Positions 9,097 to 52,526 of a DNA stretch of 64,000 bases are shown piece after piece; position 1 is the first letter of the stretch; each line of letters begins with the position of its first letter. The translations under genes and the position numbers were made by a program. This stretch comes from Bhargavaea beijingensis (GTDB taxonomy: Bacteria; Bacillota; Bacilli; Bacillales_A; Planococcaceae), in contig NZ_FNAR01000003.1 of NCBI RefSeq assembly GCF_900101985.1, positions 186,001 to 250,000 on the forward strand. The letters run 5' to 3'. The notes beneath the pieces are model-generated. The model had not been told where the DNA came from, did no database searches, and saw only the letters and a list, made by a program, of their open reading frames with translations.

Positions 9097-9129
9097 AGAA
9101 CCCCTCCTTATAGTGGGCGTCAGGGACAA

Positions 9130-43883: not shown

Positions 43884-46800
43884 TCAATCTTCTTCAAACG
43901 CTTTTTTCATGATTCCATACGACTGCTTGAGCCGCTCCTCCCACTCAGGCACATCCCAATTATCCCAGGTGTATCCCTTGAGCGGACCGATTTTTCCTCC
44001 ATCAGCTTCCGGCAGGGAATCGGCAACCCGGCCATCCTCCCCGACCATCAGAACCCCGAGGCCGATCCGGTCGATGATGACACTGGCCGATTCACCGTCT
44101 TCCGCGAGATTTCCCATAAACTCCTTCATGCTCGGATCCTTTGCCTGCAGAAGCAGCCACGGCAGCCTCAGCTCAACCACGCCTTCCCCGGCATGATAGT
44201 CAGCAAGGGAATCGTAGTCCGGCGATTCGGGGTTGCCGTTCCCTTCCCGCAGTTTGCCGGTTTCATATGCCGTGAACGGGATGGTGCGATTTTCGTTGGC
44301 CACCTCATATGCCTTGTTGAGTGCGTACTCGATCGGGATAAACCGTCCGCTGTCATTCACCCGCTCGACGTCTTGGATCAGGCCGAGCTTTTTCCCGTAC
44401 AGGAAATGATGAAAATCATAATACGGATCGATCAGGAGCCTTGATTCTTCGCCATTCAGGCTCGCGATAAACTCCAGTCCGTCCGAAAGGGCCGCGCCCT
44501 TGATTCCTCCGATCGTCGTGTTCCCCTGATCGGGCACCGTATCCAGAAGGACGACCGGATACCCGTCCGCGCCCGGTTCCATATCCAAGCGGACATAGAG
44601 ATAGCGTTCATCATGATCCACATAGACCGCACGGATCGGTCCGGCCTTTTTCTCATAAATCGGTTTTCCGGTCCAGTCGGTCACCTCCCCGTCCACCTTC
44701 ACTTTGAGCCGGTCGAAGCTCAGGAGGCCGAACTGCTGTTCATTCGTCTGCGCATTTGACCAGAACGGCCGTCTGTCCGGATTATCATAATCCAGCGTGT
44801 TCCATGTCCGCTTGAACCATTCATCCTGCCAGGTAAAGACGAGGCCGCCAAGCATCCCCTCGTGCAGGATGTCTTCATACAACCGTTTCAGCACTTCTCC
44901 CTGCTCCTGTTCCGACATGAAGCCCTGGTTCCAGCCGAACGGGTTCTCATGGGTTTTCCCGCGGGAAGCGGGTATGCCGAACTCGGCAATCAGAATCGGC
45001 ATCCGGTGGGCTTCCTTCAACTCTTTCAGATAAGCGGCGTAATTGTTCGGCTCTCCGCGGTGGTCACGGAACTCCAGGTAGCGGCGCTCGTAGTTCAGGA
45101 AATCCGGATAATACGGATACACATGGTAAGACGCGAACATTCCGGCCTGTTCCATGTCGCCCTTCGGGGCAATCAGATTCGGATCGACCGAAACGAGGTC
45201 TTCCTGCTCGGCGGATTCGGCCGGATGGTCCAGCAGATCGGTCGTCACCCAGTTCGTGAAGCTCATCGCGCGGAGCGCCCCGTATTTCCCATGTTCATAG
45301 GCCGTCAGCCATTCCATCTGTTCCGCAAGCCAATATTCAAACGGCTGCGCCCCTTTTGTCCGGTAGTAATCTCCGTCAAAATCGCCGATGCCGGCATGTT
45401 TCTCGTTCGTTCCCTGAACCGTATACGGGTACCATTCGATCCCGACCATCCAGGCGCTCACCCATTGTGAAATGTCGGCATCGTAATAGCCCGATGCATG
45501 GCCCGGCCGCTCCGGCAGATCCGCATCCCCGTGGACGACATCCACGATCCGCTGCATCTCCTCACGGAAGTCTTTGAGATTTTCCTCTTCAAAGGCGTCC
45601 AGGGACTCTTCCAGCTTTTCTTCATTGATCCATACACCGTGCATGACATAAAGCGGCTTGTCATGCGACTCATTATACGCTTTTAGCGCCCGGTAAAAGC
45701 CCGGCGGGTGGAGTGTATAAACCCGGATCGTGTTGGCATTCATCTCCCCGATTTTCTCGAACCAGCGTGCGTATTCTTCCTCGGAGATGGCCGCCTCGCC
45801 GGGGAAGTGTCCCGGCTTGCCCATGCCGACATTTACGCCCTTGACTGTAAGCGGCTTCCACTCCCCGTCCGCGAACACCTCCAGCCGGTCTTCGGCAATT
45901 CTCGAATACACCCCGTCGTCCCCTTCCGCTTTCGCGCCGAGCACGGCTTCCGCCTCCTTTTTCCCGAAGCCATCCAGCAATTCACCGATCATCGGCACGT
46001 AGGCAGACCAATAAAATGACTGGTCGGAGAAAGCATTCAGCACCCGGTATACTTGGGGAAGTCCCTGCATCTGGTAAATCCGCGGCACCGACGGCACATC
46101 ATTATAGTCACCGGCAAAATAGATGCTTTCAGACGCACCGGACTTTTTCGAGACGACGGCAGCAAACTCGGCCGGGATGCCAGATTCTCCGAGCAGCCGC
46201 CGTCCCTCCTCGGTCAGTCCCCAATCATATTCCGCAAGCGCCCGTCCGCCGTCGGCAGGTGTCACAATATCAAACCAATAGTCATAACGCGGGCTGCTGT
46301 CCATCCCAAACCGTTCTTTCCCCTCTTTTGTGAAAGAAAGGCGGATGCCTTCCCCCGTCAGGTGCCGGTCGCGCTCCAACGCGACGACCTCCCCGGTCAG
46401 ATCATTGACCAGCAAAAAGCCCGGACCTTCGTATGTCCACTTCTCCCCGTACTGCTCTGCCAGCCATGACGGGATTTCTTCGCTTTTCCGGAAATCCAAT
46501 TCCTCGAAATACCGGCCTGTCCATCCAGCCCAGTCAACGCCCAACCGGGACATGACCCGGTTCCTCACTTTTTCTCCGGTCGGCGAGGCGAATGTATTAT
46601 ATTCGGAAATCAGAAGCAGCGGATCACCGGATTGCATCCGCTGTTCCACGGCATCCCATTCTTCGCCGGAAAGGCCGCCGTGCACTTTCTCCGAACGGCC
46701 CCCCTTCCGTTCCGATTCCGCCCACGGGAGATCCTCCTCGTAGACGCCATATGTATCCGCGATGTAAAGAACATCCGTCCCACTGTAATCCGCCGCAGGA

Positions 46801-47066
46801 GGCCGGAGCTTATAAGTTTGGCGCTCCTCGTCCGGAACAAAGCCCGTATAATCCCGGGCCGCTTCATATTTCTTGCCATCCGGCCGGACGACCTTCATGT
46901 GGTTCAGCGCCCAAACAAGGCCGAGATGCTCCCGGTGTGTTTCATCGGGCACCGTCTTATCGATCACGGTGACCGAAAGCGTCCGGCTGTCTTTTGCCAG
47001 CCATAGGATGACCGGCAAGACCAGTACAACCAATGCCAAAGCGACAATCAGATAAAATCTCTTCAT
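43884..47066 (-). CDS. Large membrane-anchored glycoside hydrolase-like protein
   Basis: This 1060-residue protein is anchored by one N-terminal helix (LIVALALVVLVLPVILWLA), with the rest outside the cell. The N-terminal part (about 40-390) looks like a carbohydrate-processing or deacetylase-like module. A TIM-barrel region (about 395-770) has KGVNVGMGKPGHFPGEAAI, MNANTIRVYTLHPPGFY and PILIAEFGIPASRGKTHENP. The latter holds the probable nucleophile Glu of a GH2/GH5-like (clan A) fold. The C-terminus (about 800-1040) is a beta-rich module. It shares an ATGA overlap with the glycosyltransferase gene. It probably trims or exports the polymer made by that enzyme. Confidence 0.82.
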   Translation of the reverse strand: MKRFYLIVALALVVLVLPVILWLAKDSRTLSVTVIDKTVPDETHREHLGLVWALNHMKVVRPDGKKYEAARDYTGFVPDEERQTYKLRPPAADYSGTDVLYIADTYGVYEEDLPWAESERKGGRSEKVHGGLSGEEWDAVEQRMQSGDPLLLISEYNTFASPTGEKVRNRVMSRLGVDWAGWTGRYFEELDFRKSEEIPSWLAEQYGEKWTYEGPGFLLVNDLTGEVVALERDRHLTGEGIRLSFTKEGKERFGMDSSPRYDYWFDIVTPADGGRALAEYDWGLTEEGRRLLGESGIPAEFAAVVSKKSGASESIYFAGDYNDVPSVPRIYQMQGLPQVYRVLNAFSDQSFYWSAYVPMIGELLDGFGKKEAEAVLGAKAEGDDGVYSRIAEDRLEVFADGEWKPLTVKGVNVGMGKPGHFPGEAAISEEEYARWFEKIGEMNANTIRVYTLHPPGFYRALKAYNESHDKPLYVMHGVWINEEKLEESLDAFEEENLKDFREEMQRIVDVVHGDADLPERPGHASGYYDADISQWVSAWMVGIEWYPYTVQGTNEKHAGIGDFDGDYYRTKGAQPFEYWLAEQMEWLTAYEHGKYGALRAMSFTNWVTTDLLDHPAESAEQEDLVSVDPNLIAPKGDMEQAGMFASYHVYPYYPDFLNYERRYLEFRDHRGEPNNYAAYLKELKEAHRMPILIAEFGIPASRGKTHENPFGWNQGFMSEQEQGEVLKRLYEDILHEGMLGGLVFTWQDEWFKRTWNTLDYDNPDRRPFWSNAQTNEQQFGLLSFDRLKVKVDGEVTDWTGKPIYEKKAGPIRAVYVDHDERYLYVRLDMEPGADGYPVVLLDTVPDQGNTTIGGIKGAALSDGLEFIASLNGEESRLLIDPYYDFHHFLYGKKLGLIQDVERVNDSGRFIPIEYALNKAYEVANENRTIPFTAYETGKLREGNGNPESPDYDSLADYHAGEGVVELRLPWLLLQAKDPSMKEFMGNLAEDGESASVIIDRIGLGVLMVGEDGRVADSLPEADGGKIGPLKGYTWDNWDVPEWEERLKQSYGIMKKAFEED

Positions 47067-48484
47067 TCAGACATCCCCTTTGTTGCGCCGACCCGTTCCA
47101 TATCCCCCCAGGAGCGGATGCGGAACATGGAGCGGACCAGCCCTTCCACCCGCCAAAACAAAGTCAGCGGCTTGTACCAGACAACTTCCGTGAGTGACAG
47201 TGCCATCATCCGCAGTATATCCCGCCTTTTCGGGAAGACGTTCATACTCCATGACTCCAGCAGGACCGACCCGATCGAGAACACCGTGCCATACAGGATG
47301 AACAGCAGCAAGAGCAGCACGGCGTACTCATAATAAATGCCGCCCATGAAAAATGCAGCGATCACATACACATAGCCGCCCAGCTCAATCAGAGGCCCGA
47401 TGCATTCGACCAGCCAGAAGTAAGGAAACGACAACAGCCCGACCGTGCCGTACTTCGGATTCAGTGTCATCCCCCTGTGCCGCCAAAGGCTTTCAAGCAG
47501 GCCCTGGTGCCAGCGCCTCCGCTGTCTCCGCAAAACGGCAAGTGACTGGGGCGCTTCTGTCCAGCAAACGGGATCGGGGACAAATTCCACCCTTGCATCC
47601 ATCTTTTTGTCTTTGATCAGCCGCTGGATTTTCACGACCATTTCCATGTCTTCACCGATCGTCTCAGTGTTGTAGCCGCCGGCTTCAAAGGCAAATTTCT
47701 TCGAAAATACGCTGAACGCGCCCGAGATAATCAGCACCATATTCAGCTTGCTGAGGGCAATCCGGCCCATGAGGAAGGCTCTCAGATATTCCACGACCTG
47801 CATCACGACGAGCGGCCGTCCGGACAGCCGGATGTCCGACACGACGCCATGGTCAACCGCCATCCCGTTGACAATCCGGACATTTCCGCCTGCGGCGACG
47901 ACTTTGCCGCCCGAAGTCATGATCGGCTTCATGACGCGCAGAAGCGAATTCCCGTCCAGGATCGAATCCCCGTCAATCGTGCAGAAATACGGATAGCGCG
48001 CAAAGTTGATCCCCACATTGAGCGCATCTCCCTTTCCCCCGTTTTCCTTTTTGATCAGCCAAAGATTCGGGTGGATCCGCGAACGGTATACGTCCAGTAC
48101 GCGCTTTGTTTCCAGGCGTGATTCAGCCGGTTTTTCGGCCGGCACCATGTCAAACTGCCGGATAACCACTTCAGCCGTTTGGTCGGTGGAACCGTCATCG
48201 ATGACGAGCAGTTCAGTCTGGGGATAATTCAGATTAAGGAGCGAGTGAATGCTCCCGACCACGCCGGCCTCTTCGTTGTAGGCCGGTACCAGGATTGAAA
48301 CCGGCTTGGAAAAGAAGGCGTCGATAAATTGGTCATCCAGTTCGCGGCGGTCAAGGCGGCGCTGGCGCTTCAGATCCAGGAAAGCGAACAGGAACATCCC
48401 GCTGTATGCAAGGATGACGACGGCCATGTAGATAAAAATGACCCCTCCGAAAAACTTCATTACCCACTCAATTGCAAGATCCAT
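47063..48484 (-). CDS. Processive family 2 glycosyltransferase (PgaC/BcsA-like)
   Basis: This 473-residue membrane enzyme has an N-terminal helix and a GT2 domain with SILVPAYNEEAGVVGSI, LLVIDDGSTDQTAEVV, FCTIDGDSILDGNSLL, TIGEDMEMVVKIQRL and the QRRRWHQG processivity motif. Several C-terminal helices would form the polymer channel. It would polymerise a nucleotide-sugar into an exopolysaccharide. There is no PilZ domain. Polymer identity is unknown. Confidence 0.92.
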   Translation of the reverse strand: MDLAIEWVMKFFGGVIFIYMAVVILAYSGMFLFAFLDLKRQRRLDRRELDDQFIDAFFSKPVSILVPAYNEEAGVVGSIHSLLNLNYPQTELLVIDDGSTDQTAEVVIRQFDMVPAEKPAESRLETKRVLDVYRSRIHPNLWLIKKENGGKGDALNVGINFARYPYFCTIDGDSILDGNSLLRVMKPIMTSGGKVVAAGGNVRIVNGMAVDHGVVSDIRLSGRPLVVMQVVEYLRAFLMGRIALSKLNMVLIISGAFSVFSKKFAFEAGGYNTETIGEDMEMVVKIQRLIKDKKMDARVEFVPDPVCWTEAPQSLAVLRRQRRRWHQGLLESLWRHRGMTLNPKYGTVGLLSFPYFWLVECIGPLIELGGYVYVIAAFFMGGIYYEYAVLLLLLFILYGTVFSIGSVLLESWSMNVFPKRRDILRMMALSLTEVVWYKPLTLFWRVEGLVRSMFRIRSWGDMERVGATKGMSE

Positions 48485-48536: not shown

Positions 48537-49514
48537 TTAACGCAGGACCGCCAAGTCCTCCGCGGCCTCGCGCTGTCTCGCCAATAATCCGCGGACCTCT
48601 TCACGGACAAGCCATGACGGATCGTCGCGGAGGCGGGATGCATACCGGGCGGCCTCATCCGCGGGAACCCTTCTGAGCATACGGGCCCCCAGGAAGCGCT
48701 CTTCCCAAACCGGTGAATCAAACGCACGTTCAAGGATCCGGTCGGGTGTCCGGATGCCGAATGCATCAATGGCCCGGAGTACACGGATCCTGATCTCCGG
48801 ATCTTCGCTGTCCAAAAGCCCTTCAAGAAACGGCAGCTTCTTGAGGTCCTGCCGCATTCCAAGCACCTCGACCATGCCGTACTTGAGTATGGGATCCAGC
48901 TGGCCGAACTGCGCGGAGGCTTCTTCAAATACCGGTTCCGGCATGAGGAAAAACAGCTGGCGGGCCTCGTACTCGGACAAGTTGCCGAGTCGATCGGCAT
49001 TCCTTCCGATAAAGCCGTCCGGACGGAACTGCAGGTCAATCAGCAGCAGTTGAAACCGCTCATCCGCCGTCAGCCTTTTTCGCTCGAGTGTATGTACATC
49101 GCCAAGCAAACTTTCCATGCCGAAGTCCTCGATCCGGTACAGGGCATTCATCCTTTCGCTCCAGTTCCTGCTTTTCAGTTTTTTCCGGTAAAACGGCGCC
49201 AGATGGCCATCTGCAAAGGCCCTGATCCGTTCCCGGATTTTGTCGCCAGAGACGTTTGTCAGGTAAGCCCGGAAAATTTCTTCCACCGCGGCAAGCTCGG
49301 CTTTGTTTTTCGGAACCATCTCCGCCGAGACATCTTCCATCCCGCGAAGCACGCGGTACCACCTTTCATTGTTGCGGGACAGGTAAGCTTTTGCCTTTTC
49401 CATTTTTCTTTCCTGCACAGCACGCGCCGCGAACAGGTAGACGGTCAGCGCAACCAACACAAGGAGCAGCAGCAGAACCCCGATGGATACGGTTGTAACG
49501 GATATGCCGGTCAT
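48537..49514 (-). CDS. HEAT-repeat protein with N-terminal membrane anchor
   Basis: This 325-residue protein has one transmembrane helix (VSIGVLLLLLVLVALTVYLFA), then an all-helical region with repeated motifs of HEAT type. Examples are WSERMNALYRIEDFGMESLL and PEIRIRVLRAIDAFGI, then WEERFLGARMLRRVPADEA and PSWLVREEVRGLLA. Its ATG overlaps the stop of the upstream receiver gene as ATGA. It probably scaffolds the glycosyltransferase complex in the cytoplasm. I know of no assigned function. Confidence 0.78.
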   Translation of the reverse strand: MTGISVTTVSIGVLLLLLVLVALTVYLFAARAVQERKMEKAKAYLSRNNERWYRVLRGMEDVSAEMVPKNKAELAAVEEIFRAYLTNVSGDKIRERIRAFADGHLAPFYRKKLKSRNWSERMNALYRIEDFGMESLLGDVHTLERKRLTADERFQLLLIDLQFRPDGFIGRNADRLGNLSEYEARQLFFLMPEPVFEEASAQFGQLDPILKYGMVEVLGMRQDLKKLPFLEGLLDSEDPEIRIRVLRAIDAFGIRTPDRILERAFDSPVWEERFLGARMLRRVPADEAARYASRLRDDPSWLVREEVRGLLARQREAAEDLAVLR

Positions 49515-50332
49515 GACCATAACCTCGCCAGCAGCCGTTTTATCTGGGCTTCAAACAATCTCAGGTTAAAGGGCTTGACCAAAAAGCCATCCGCGCCGCT
49601 TTCATAAGCATAAGTCATGTCCTCTTCCGAGTTTCTCCGGGTCATCATCAGGATCGTGAATTTCCCGTCATTCGGAAGGGAACGGAGCTCATGGAGCACA
49701 TCCAGGCCGTTCTGCCTCGGAAGCAAATCATTCATGACCACGAGATGCGGGTGTGCGGACACTGTCCAGCCCGACTCGAGGAATGTCCGGCCGTCACCGA
49801 ACGTCTCGATCTTAAGCTGGATACCGGGCGTATCCAGCTGGTCAATCGCCATTCCGAGTACGTCGCGGAACAGCGGTTCCGGGTCAAGAATGCTGACCTT
49901 TACCTCCTCGTCCGGGCGTTGCCGCAAAGAGTCTAATACCGTGACCCGCCCCTCTGCATCACCGATCGCCGACTGCATGCGCCTGAGCGAGGCCTGATAG
50001 TCAACATCAGGATGGAAGATTTCAAGGATTGCCGCCTTCATCTCTCCCTCCATCCGGAACAGCCGGTTCAGGAAGCTTTTGGCTTCGTCCGTACCGCTCA
50101 TCGGCAGCAGCACTCCCCGCTCGTCGGGCCGGTCCGTTTCAAACAGCACATCTGTGGAGCGGACAAGGCTCCGGAGACGGGAAGCCGTTTCGGCGCCCGT
50201 TTCATTTTCCGCGCGGATTACGATCATCACTATTGTGCGGCGCCCGCGCAGCGCATTTGCTTTCATCAGGTCGAAGATATCTTGGATGTGAGGCTCTTTG
50301 AATACCGGATGGGTCCCTGTTTTGGTTGCCAC
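49511..50332 (-). CDS. Two-domain regulator: degenerate GGDEF-like plus pseudo-receiver domain
   Basis: This 273-residue protein is the first gene of the operon. Its N-terminal half (about 30-140) resembles a truncated GGDEF module (VRSTDVLFETDRPDERGVLLPMSG) without the catalytic motif. The C-terminal half is receiver-like. The usual phosphoacceptor position in HLVVMNDLLPRQNG is Asn rather than Asp, with an Asp one place later. The first acidic pair is reduced to one Asp (SILDPEPL), while the Lys (DGFLVKPF) is kept. It is probably a phosphorylation-independent regulator of the polysaccharide machinery. The start is GTG at 50332 after GGAGGGGG. Confidence 0.8.
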   Translation of the reverse strand: MATKTGTHPVFKEPHIQDIFDLMKANALRGRRTIVMIVIRAENETGAETASRLRSLVRSTDVLFETDRPDERGVLLPMSGTDEAKSFLNRLFRMEGEMKAAILEIFHPDVDYQASLRRMQSAIGDAEGRVTVLDSLRQRPDEEVKVSILDPEPLFRDVLGMAIDQLDTPGIQLKIETFGDGRTFLESGWTVSAHPHLVVMNDLLPRQNGLDVLHELRSLPNDGKFTILMMTRRNSEEDMTYAYESGADGFLVKPFNLRLFEAQIKRLLARLWS

Positions 50333-50491: not shown

Positions 50492-50515
50492 AAAAAAGGA
50501 CCGGTCGCCCGGTCC
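50492..50515 (-). terminator. Terminator of the RsbQ-GGDEF unit
   Basis: Read leftward, GGACCGG and CCGGTCC pair around GCGA and are followed by six Ts. It separates the GGDEF gene from the polysaccharide operon. Confidence 0.85.
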
Positions 50516-50550: not shown

Positions 50551-51576
50551 TCAGGAACCGACGGTCACCCGGTTTCTTCCCTCCCGCTTTGACCGGTACA
50601 AGGCTTCGTCCGCGCGCTTCAGCAGCAGGGCCGGCTCCTCGCCGGTCTTTCTGAGCGCGACACCGGCCGACACAGTCACCGGCACCGGCTTCCCGGCTTC
50701 AGCAATCCGTTTCCGGATCCTTTCGGCCACCGATGCCGCAGCCGTCTCTGAAGCGGTCTCCACAGTCAATGAAAACTCCTCGCCGCCAATCCTCGCCGCA
50801 TACAGTTGAATGCCTTTCATGCTTCTTGTCTCCTCCGCCAGGTCCTCAATAGCGGTTGCGACCCGCTTGAGCACGTCATCCCCGACAGCATGGCCGTATG
50901 TATCATTGACTTGTTTAAAGTGGTCGATATCCAATGCAATGACGGCATACGGGGACTCGGCGAGACGGTCCATCTGCTTCTCGAATGCCCGCCGATTTGC
51001 GAGTCCCGTGAGCGGGTCGGTGGAAGCGAGTTCGCGGAACTGTTCTGTGAGCTGGATCAATTCGTCCTGCTTGTTCTGGATTTTCTGCACCAGCCCCATC
51101 AGTTGGCTATTCGCCTGTTCCGTTTCCAGCCGGACACGCTCAGCTTCGCGCTTCGCATCCATCATCTCTTCTTCGTACTTTCCCCGTATCGGCATCGGCA
51201 GGATTGCACACTCGTAACAGCCGGACGCCTCCGCCGCACTGAGCAGAGCCGGCATCCTCCCGTCCCTGCAGCGCAGGGAAATCTCCATTTCCTTCACCCT
51301 GCCGTGAAGTTCAATGGCCGGCATGAAAAAGGTCTGGAAATAGACCCATCCTGACACCGTCAGCATGTCCCGCACTTTTTTTGGCGGATCATCCAGTCCC
51401 GCCATTTCCATGAAGGTCCGGTTCACCTCCAGGACATTCCATTCTTTATCCAATATGACGTAGCCGACCGGTGCCCGGTCCAATTGCGCATCCATCGATG
51501 TAACGCCTGCCTTTCCCCCGCTTGCGCCGGTTCCTCTCTGATTGCCTTCCGCTGTTTCAGATTCCCCGCTCATCAT
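50551..51576 (-). CDS. PAS-GGDEF diguanylate cyclase
   Basis: This 341-residue protein has an N-terminal PAS domain (about 30-140; LDRAPVGYVILDKEWNVLEVN). A coiled-coil linker (about 145-185) leads to a GGDEF domain with IALDIDHFKQVNDTYGH and the intact active-site motif RIGGEEF. No RxxD inhibitory site is visible before GGEEF. It would make cyclic di-GMP in response to the PAS ligand. The start overlaps the end of the RsbQ-like gene by 20 bases. A second ATG 81 bases downstream is possible. Confidence 0.9.
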   Translation of the reverse strand: MMSGESETAEGNQRGTGASGGKAGVTSMDAQLDRAPVGYVILDKEWNVLEVNRTFMEMAGLDDPPKKVRDMLTVSGWVYFQTFFMPAIELHGRVKEMEISLRCRDGRMPALLSAAEASGCYECAILPMPIRGKYEEEMMDAKREAERVRLETEQANSQLMGLVQKIQNKQDELIQLTEQFRELASTDPLTGLANRRAFEKQMDRLAESPYAVIALDIDHFKQVNDTYGHAVGDDVLKRVATAIEDLAEETRSMKGIQLYAARIGGEEFSLTVETASETAAASVAERIRKRIAEAGKPVPVTVSAGVALRKTGEEPALLLKRADEALYRSKREGRNRVTVGS

Positions 51577-52372
51577 TCAGGTATCGACGGATTTCACGGA
51601 TGGTCTCTTCCGGCTCACTGATGTGGGGATTATGCCCCTTGGCCGCAAGCATCCTCAACGTGCTGCCCGCGATCTGTTTGCGCACAAATTCCCCGACTTC
51701 CGCCGGTGCCACGGAATCTTCCTGAGCCTGGAGGACCAGCGTCGGCACAGTTACCTGGCTCAGCCGGTCCCGCACATCCGACAGGAACGTCACTTCCGCA
51801 AACTGGCGCATGATGTCCGGGTCGTTCGAGACCAGCCGCTCCTCCAGTTCCTCCGCAAGAAACGGTCTGTCCATGTTCTTCATCGAAGCAGGCGCCATGT
51901 ATTTTGCCCACTCCTTGTAGTTCCGTTCCATCATTGCGAGCAGTTCCTCTATATCTTCCCGGTCATAGCCGCCCCTGTACTCCGGCGCATTCAGATAGCG
52001 CGGCGATGGGCCGATCATGATCAATGTGCCGATGGCTCCCGGACGCCCGATGGACGCCAGCGCCCCGATCATGGCACTGACGGAATGCCCGACAAACACC
52101 GCGTCTCTCAGATCGAGCGCATCCGCAATCTCGATGACATCACGCGCATAGCCGTCAAGCGAGTCATAATCGGAAGGACGATACTGCGAACGGTCACTTC
52201 TGCCGGAACCGACATGATCAAACAGCACGACCCGCCATCCGCTTTCAAATGCCGGAGCGACCCGTTCCCATACGGTCTGGTCACAGCCCAGCCCATGCCC
52301 GAAAACAATCGTCCGCTCCCCTGCCCCGCGTATGGTCACATGGTTTCTTTGCATCACTTTATCTTTCAACAT
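51557..52372 (-). CDS. rsbQ: RsbQ-like alpha/beta hydrolase
   Basis: This 271-residue protein resembles RsbQ. It shows VFGHGLGCDQTVWERVAPAF at the start, the nucleophile Ser in FVGHSVSAMIG, the DHVGSGRSDRS motif and the catalytic His in AKGHNPHISEP. In Bacillus RsbQ acts with the PAS-phosphatase RsbP in the energy branch of the general stress response. Here the translationally coupled partner is instead a PAS-GGDEF cyclase. The ATG at 52372 has a purine-rich ribosome binding site; the longer upstream frame does not. Confidence 0.85.
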   Translation of the reverse strand: MLKDKVMQRNHVTIRGAGERTIVFGHGLGCDQTVWERVAPAFESGWRVVLFDHVGSGRSDRSQYRPSDYDSLDGYARDVIEIADALDLRDAVFVGHSVSAMIGALASIGRPGAIGTLIMIGPSPRYLNAPEYRGGYDREDIEELLAMMERNYKEWAKYMAPASMKNMDRPFLAEELEERLVSNDPDIMRQFAEVTFLSDVRDRLSQVTVPTLVLQAQEDSVAPAEVGEFVRKQIAGSTLRMLAAKGHNPHISEPEETIREIRRYLNDERGI

Positions 52373-52494: not shown

Positions 52495-52524
52495 ATCAAA
52501 AAGCCGGCCCCTGCAGCCGGCTTT
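52495..52524 (-). terminator. Terminator of the M20 amidohydrolase gene
   Basis: AAAGCCGGC pairs with GCCGGCTTT around a 7-base loop, with a run of Ts when read leftward. It lies just after the M20 stop. Confidence 0.85.
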
Positions 52525-52526
52525 CC

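Follow-up and report, generated by a model that had tools for sequence, protein, structure and literature searches.

The association of an RsbQ-type hydrolase with an RsbP-type PAS domain was described as a class by Nadezhdin, Brody and Price in 2011, comprising 45 RsbQ/RsbP-PAS pairs (PMC3183031). The outputs of these pairs were a PPM phosphatase, a histidine kinase or a diguanylate cyclase, and the diguanylate cyclase output was present in both Gram lineages (PMC3183031). According to the genetics in B. subtilis, RsbQ contacts the PAS domain, and among the signature residues mutated in B. subtilis RsbP F55, Y59, L48 and E72 were essential (PMC3183031). A PAS ligand made by RsbQ is a hypothesis even in B. 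subtilis; in a second model RsbQ itself is the sensor, and the PAS domain is without an identified cofactor (PMC3183031). In the literature on RsbQ-PAS sensing we found no report of a ligand for any such module.

We analyzed a stretch of 64,000 nucleotides from Bhargavaea beijingensis, here referred to as the window. It carries a pair of genes which is a member of the class published in 2011; the architecture was already known and only the species is new. The features of the pair and its flanks are given below.

52498..52526, minus strand: terminator-like hairpin where the upstream M20 peptidase gene ends, at a distance of 126 bases from rsbQ (consensus match)
51557..52372, minus strand: rsbQ-like alpha/beta hydrolase, 271 aa (PDB match, aligned triad, Pfam Abhydrolase)
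51496..51576, minus strand: 27-codon in-frame extension, source of an apparent 20-base overlap (position of the start and conserved ribosome site in Bhargavaea)
50551..51495, minus strand: diguanylate cyclase (GGEEF) with RsbP-type PAS and coiled coil, 314 aa when counted from the probable start codon
51160..51495, minus strand: RsbP-type PAS domain (RsbP-numbered signature residues)
51022..51186, minus strand: predicted continuous helix, residues 104-158 (AlphaFold, a/d register)
50551..51027, minus strand: GGDEF domain, GGEEF and catalytic residues present, RxxD I-site absent
50498..50515, minus strand: hairpin resembling an intrinsic terminator, after the cyclase gene (consensus match)

The hydrolase ORF runs from an ATG at 52372, preceded by AAAGGTGAAGGC, to a stop at 51557. 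Its top phmmer match among all PDB chains was B. subtilis RsbQ (1wom; 298 bits, E 5e-88), with the plant receptors KAI2 and D14 ranking behind. Ser97 (GHSVSA), Asp219 (QEDSVAP) and His247 (KGHNPH) align with the triad of RsbQ. The match to 1wom and the aligned triad confirm that the hydrolase is RsbQ-like, as the first-pass annotation had stated, and by its sequence it is an RsbQ orthologue. The pair thus includes the RsbQ-type hydrolase with Ser-Asp-His triad that belongs to the 2011 class. KAI2 and D14 are homologous alpha/beta hydrolases which act in plants as hormone receptors and have an F-box system as partner, whereas the window hydrolase is bacterial and has a PAS-GGDEF protein as partner.

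In the downstream ORF, Pfam matches were found to PAS_8 (E 2e-5) and GGDEF (E 9e-37), the latter with an intact GGEEF motif. The numbering of the 2011 study was reproduced on the PAS-PPM protein of a related genome (L151), where nine of nine residues coincided. In this RsbP numbering the signature residues L48, Y55, F56, F59, P62, E72 and P86 were kept or conservative, with V10, V13 and W53 as exceptions. The window protein thus keeps most signature residues of the 2011 modules, and differs from the published consensus by V for C10, W for basic 53 and F for H/Y59. The PAS domain ends in ...YECAILPMPIRGKYEEE and is without the DIT motif, as in the modules of 2011. These modules share the complete order with the window pair, with RsbQ upstream and an N-terminal RsbP-type PAS, a coiled coil and a GGDEF domain in the partner.

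The AlphaFold model of the cyclase (mean pLDDT 92) consists of the PAS domain, a single helix of 55 residues and the GGDEF domain. Within helix 104-158, 13 of 16 a/d positions are hydrophobic in one register. By this register count on a predicted helix, the protein would have the coiled coil, 21 residues or longer, that leads to the output domain in the published class. An alignment of 42 proteins showed no variation in GGEEF or in the residues for metal and substrate. This corresponds to the GG[D/E]EF signature of active diguanylate cyclases, and the protein is predicted to be active. The optional inhibitory site RxxD is replaced by G..L in the window's cyclase and is present in 14 of the 42 aligned proteins. 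The output therefore falls within the three types of the 2011 class, here as a GGEEF cyclase. The Pfam domains and the invariant catalytic residues agree with the earlier description of a hydrolase gene followed by a gene for PAS plus an intact GGEEF.

The start of the cyclase gene needs correction. From the first ATG (51576) the ORF spans 50551-51576 on the same strand, downstream of the hydrolase gene, and an overlap of 20 bases with this gene arises only with that start. The PAS-GGDEF proteins of relatives begin M-[D/E/N]-x-Q/R-L...APCGY, which is 7-9 residues ahead of the P in the APCGY motif of the PAS domain and matches ORF residue 28 (ATG 51493-51495). Upstream of the 51495 ATG, GAAAGGCA(A)GG was found in all four Bhargavaea carrying the pair. 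Based on the start position in relatives and this conserved ribosome site, the overlap is most likely an annotation artefact of a mis-called start codon. The cyclase most likely starts at ATG 51493-51495, 61 bases past the hydrolase stop, and the 27 codons from 51496 to 51576 are probably not translated. Translational coupling by overlap, as the first-pass annotation had it, was rejected on this start-codon comparison.

The distance between the stop of the hydrolase gene and the PAS-proximal start codon varies in the four Bhargavaea (61, 50, 64 and 36 bases) and ranges from -17 to 64 bases, mostly positive, among 90 loci. With its 61-base gap the window conforms to the published arrangement of rsbQ immediately upstream of the PAS gene on the same strand. 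The hairpins before and after the pair are consistent with a bicistronic unit; the terminator-like consensus matched 5 times in the region with 2.3 matches expected. Close spacing and co-transcription of rsbQ and the cyclase gene are likely. A SigB-type promoter pattern had no match near the pair.

With B. subtilis RsbQ-RsbP, the energy branch of SigB, the pair shares an orthologous hydrolase with the same triad, a related PAS domain, a coiled coil and the gene order. The output, however, is a GGEEF cyclase in the window and a PPM phosphatase in B. subtilis. Furthermore, the window genome lacks an RsbP, and the input to its SigB comes from RsbU and the stressosome. A complete rsbR-rsbS-rsbT-rsbU-rsbV-rsbW-sigB-rsbX operon, named by order and sequence resemblance, is located on another contig of the same genome. 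The search of the genome for SpoIIE/PPM domains gave only RsbU, an 865-aa SpoIIE-like protein, RsbX and one weak match, and hence no PAS-PPM RsbP of the kind that marks the SigB energy branch. Besides the window's cyclase no second RsbP-type PAS was found in the genome either. The cyclase is therefore the only partner of the RsbP-PAS type found for RsbQ. A separate RsbQ-RsbP pair, which would have spoken against an input from hydrolase and PAS being wired to a cyclase instead of RsbP, was sought in the genome and was absent.

To describe the distribution of the pair, RsbQ orthologues were collected at three levels. They were present in 4 of 8 Bhargavaea genomes, in 135 of 261 genomes of the window's family (15 of 19 genera; the sample of the order consists of this one family) and in 48 of 400 genomes sampled from the class. 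Among 117 distinct RsbQ loci, which are not a random sample, the partner next to RsbQ was a GG[DE]EF protein in 94, a PAS-PPM protein in 8 and a PAS-histidine kinase in 2. The others had a PAS-only protein (4), an RsbR-like STAS protein (6) or other or broken frames (3). On the RsbQ tree the partner label changed 9 times compared to 22.7 times when shuffled. The PPM-linked RsbQ formed one group, as did the STAS-linked ones, which were nested among those linked to GGDEF. The module is widely conserved, and the pairing of RsbQ-like and PAS-GGDEF genes, whose co-occurrence the first-pass annotation had suggested as a check, is strongly conserved, with PAS-GG[DE]EF next door in the 94 loci.

At four loci (L148, L152, L155 and L157) the gene after RsbQ encodes a short protein of 143-179 aa, with PAS and a helix but no output domain. 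A related genus showed, in six genomes, an RsbR-like STAS protein of 285-295 aa without PAS as the neighbour following RsbQ (L097, at its second RsbQ; L098, with RsbQ at 9123; L037, L109, L110 and L117). Some of these genomes also carry RsbQ-PAS-GGEEF close by. The STAS partner does not belong to any of the three outputs described in 2011 (PMC3183031).

We read the pair as a bicistronic RsbQ-PAS sensing module with diguanylate cyclase output and give this reading a probability of about 0.8. It is supported by the RsbQ triad, the PAS signature, the heptad helix, the invariant GGEEF residues, the 94 of 117 loci and the few changes on the tree, and also by the lack of an RsbP phosphatase or other RsbP-type PAS in the genome search. 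Against it stand the three departures from the signature (10, 53 and 59) and the absence of the pair from half of the family and from 4 of 8 Bhargavaea, so that the pair is dispensable. Most likely, RsbQ would dock on its partner, a dimer built of PAS, coiled coil and GGEEF, at the Falpha helix of the PAS domain. Binding or turnover of a small molecule by the Ser-His-Asp pocket of RsbQ would change the state of the PAS domain, which the coiled coil would relay to the GGEEF domains, setting the synthesis of cyclic di-GMP. The 2011 definition of the class also has RsbQ in contact with the PAS domain and necessary for the output. For the window pair, this contact and the need for the hydrolase active site are suggested by analogy to B. 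subtilis RsbQP, and the contact model has support from the 2011 genetics of B. subtilis RsbP (PMC3183031).

If hydrolase and cyclase were neighbours by operon accident, RsbQ would have another target, such as SigB, and the PAS domain would sense a signal of its own. The complete sigB operon fits this view. Yet RsbQ is widespread in the family (15 of 19 genera) and extends to other families of the class; a gene for an RsbP-type PAS follows it in most loci examined, and the genome search gave neither an RsbP phosphatase nor a further RsbP-type PAS on which it could act. We consider such an accident very improbable. A different matter is how the signal passes within the module. In the second model of 2011 RsbQ is the sensor proper, so that occupancy of its pocket would be signalled to the PAS domain and hydrolysis would only reset the system, like in KAI2 and D14. 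The homology to these receptors and a PAS domain without identified cofactor (PMC3183031) argue for it, and RsbQ beside a PAS-less STAS protein in six relatives fits signalling by contact. This is a sub-model of the sensing module and no exclusive rival to it, the other possible mode being delivery of a product into the PAS domain; we rate its chance as slightly below even.

Whether the module serves the neighbouring exopolysaccharide operon has to be considered as well. The operon consists of the following genes.

49511..50332, minus strand: degenerate GGDEF fused to a receiver domain, first operon gene (Response_reg, invariant columns, model, hhalign)
48537..49520, minus strand: HEAT-repeat protein (Pfam)
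47063..48484, minus strand: GT2 polysaccharide synthase-like glycosyltransferase
43884..47066, minus strand: 1060-aa protein at the end of the operon (no Pfam match)

The last protein had no match in Pfam or NCBIfam and shared 67-86% identity across Bhargavaea. A structure search with the first protein was dominated by matches to receiver domains, and its N-terminal half was judged by profile comparison. By hhalign this half matched the GGDEF alignment with a probability of 92 (E 9e-8), with controls near 0, and R58xxD61 is invariant in its degenerate GGDEF. These sequence features make the protein a candidate receptor for cyclic di-GMP. Near this GT2 gene, some relatives have as best match a longer open frame of about 540 aa instead. 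YdaK, PelD and PssE are degenerate GGDEF receptors with a retained I-site. The window protein resembles them in the degenerate GGDEF fold, the kept RxxD and being encoded with a polysaccharide synthase; in contrast to them it is fused to a receiver domain, and its binding is only putative.

As the first-pass annotation had stated, the pair is located next to the operon in the window. However, the operon and the pair are likely separate transcription units, judged from the hairpin 50498-50515 between them, and only in Bhargavaea are they adjacent. A general linkage to exopolysaccharide was rejected for the latter reason. Across 261 genomes RsbQ and the GT2 synthase occurred together with an odds ratio of 2.4 (p 0.0008), a crude value which ignores kinship and was given no weight.

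A dedicated local circuit, in which the cyclic di-GMP of the pair would be read by the degenerate GGDEF-receiver protein heading the operon, is on balance doubtful. The pair adjoins the operon in all three Bhargavaea having both, on either side of it: in G002 the order is as in the window, and in G006 the pair is at the other end. The kept RxxD of the operon protein also fits, and no PilZ domain was found in the genome by a search that gave matches in several control genomes. On the other hand, operon, M20 peptidase and comK are found in the same order in G004 and G005 with the pair missing, and in G003 the pair is present but the synthase is not. Outside the genus the loci of pair and operon are 50 kb to 3 Mb apart (genomes with both on the same contig were compared). 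Besides the likely separate transcription, the genome encodes about ten GGDEF and three EAL proteins, so that the cyclase has about nine further GGDEF proteins beside it in the cytosol. A wider proposal would have the Bhargavaea pair feed the operon via the degenerate GGDEF (RxxD)-receiver receptor, merging RsbQ-sensed and phosphorylation signals, and RsbQ of relatives switched to RsbR-like STAS as a fourth partner class. We regard it as rather unlikely and put it forward tentatively. The partner switch of RsbQ to STAS and the degenerate GGDEF-receiver protein are nevertheless the most interesting by-products of this analysis.

The presence of RsbQ in a genome does not imply the RsbQP energy branch of SigB. 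A readout by the cyclase in E. coli would offer a clean route to the RsbQ ligand. Among the loci examined the cyclase form outnumbers the phosphatase form by 94 to 8, and by these numbers RsbQ sensing in the family would act mainly through cyclic di-GMP and not through SigB.
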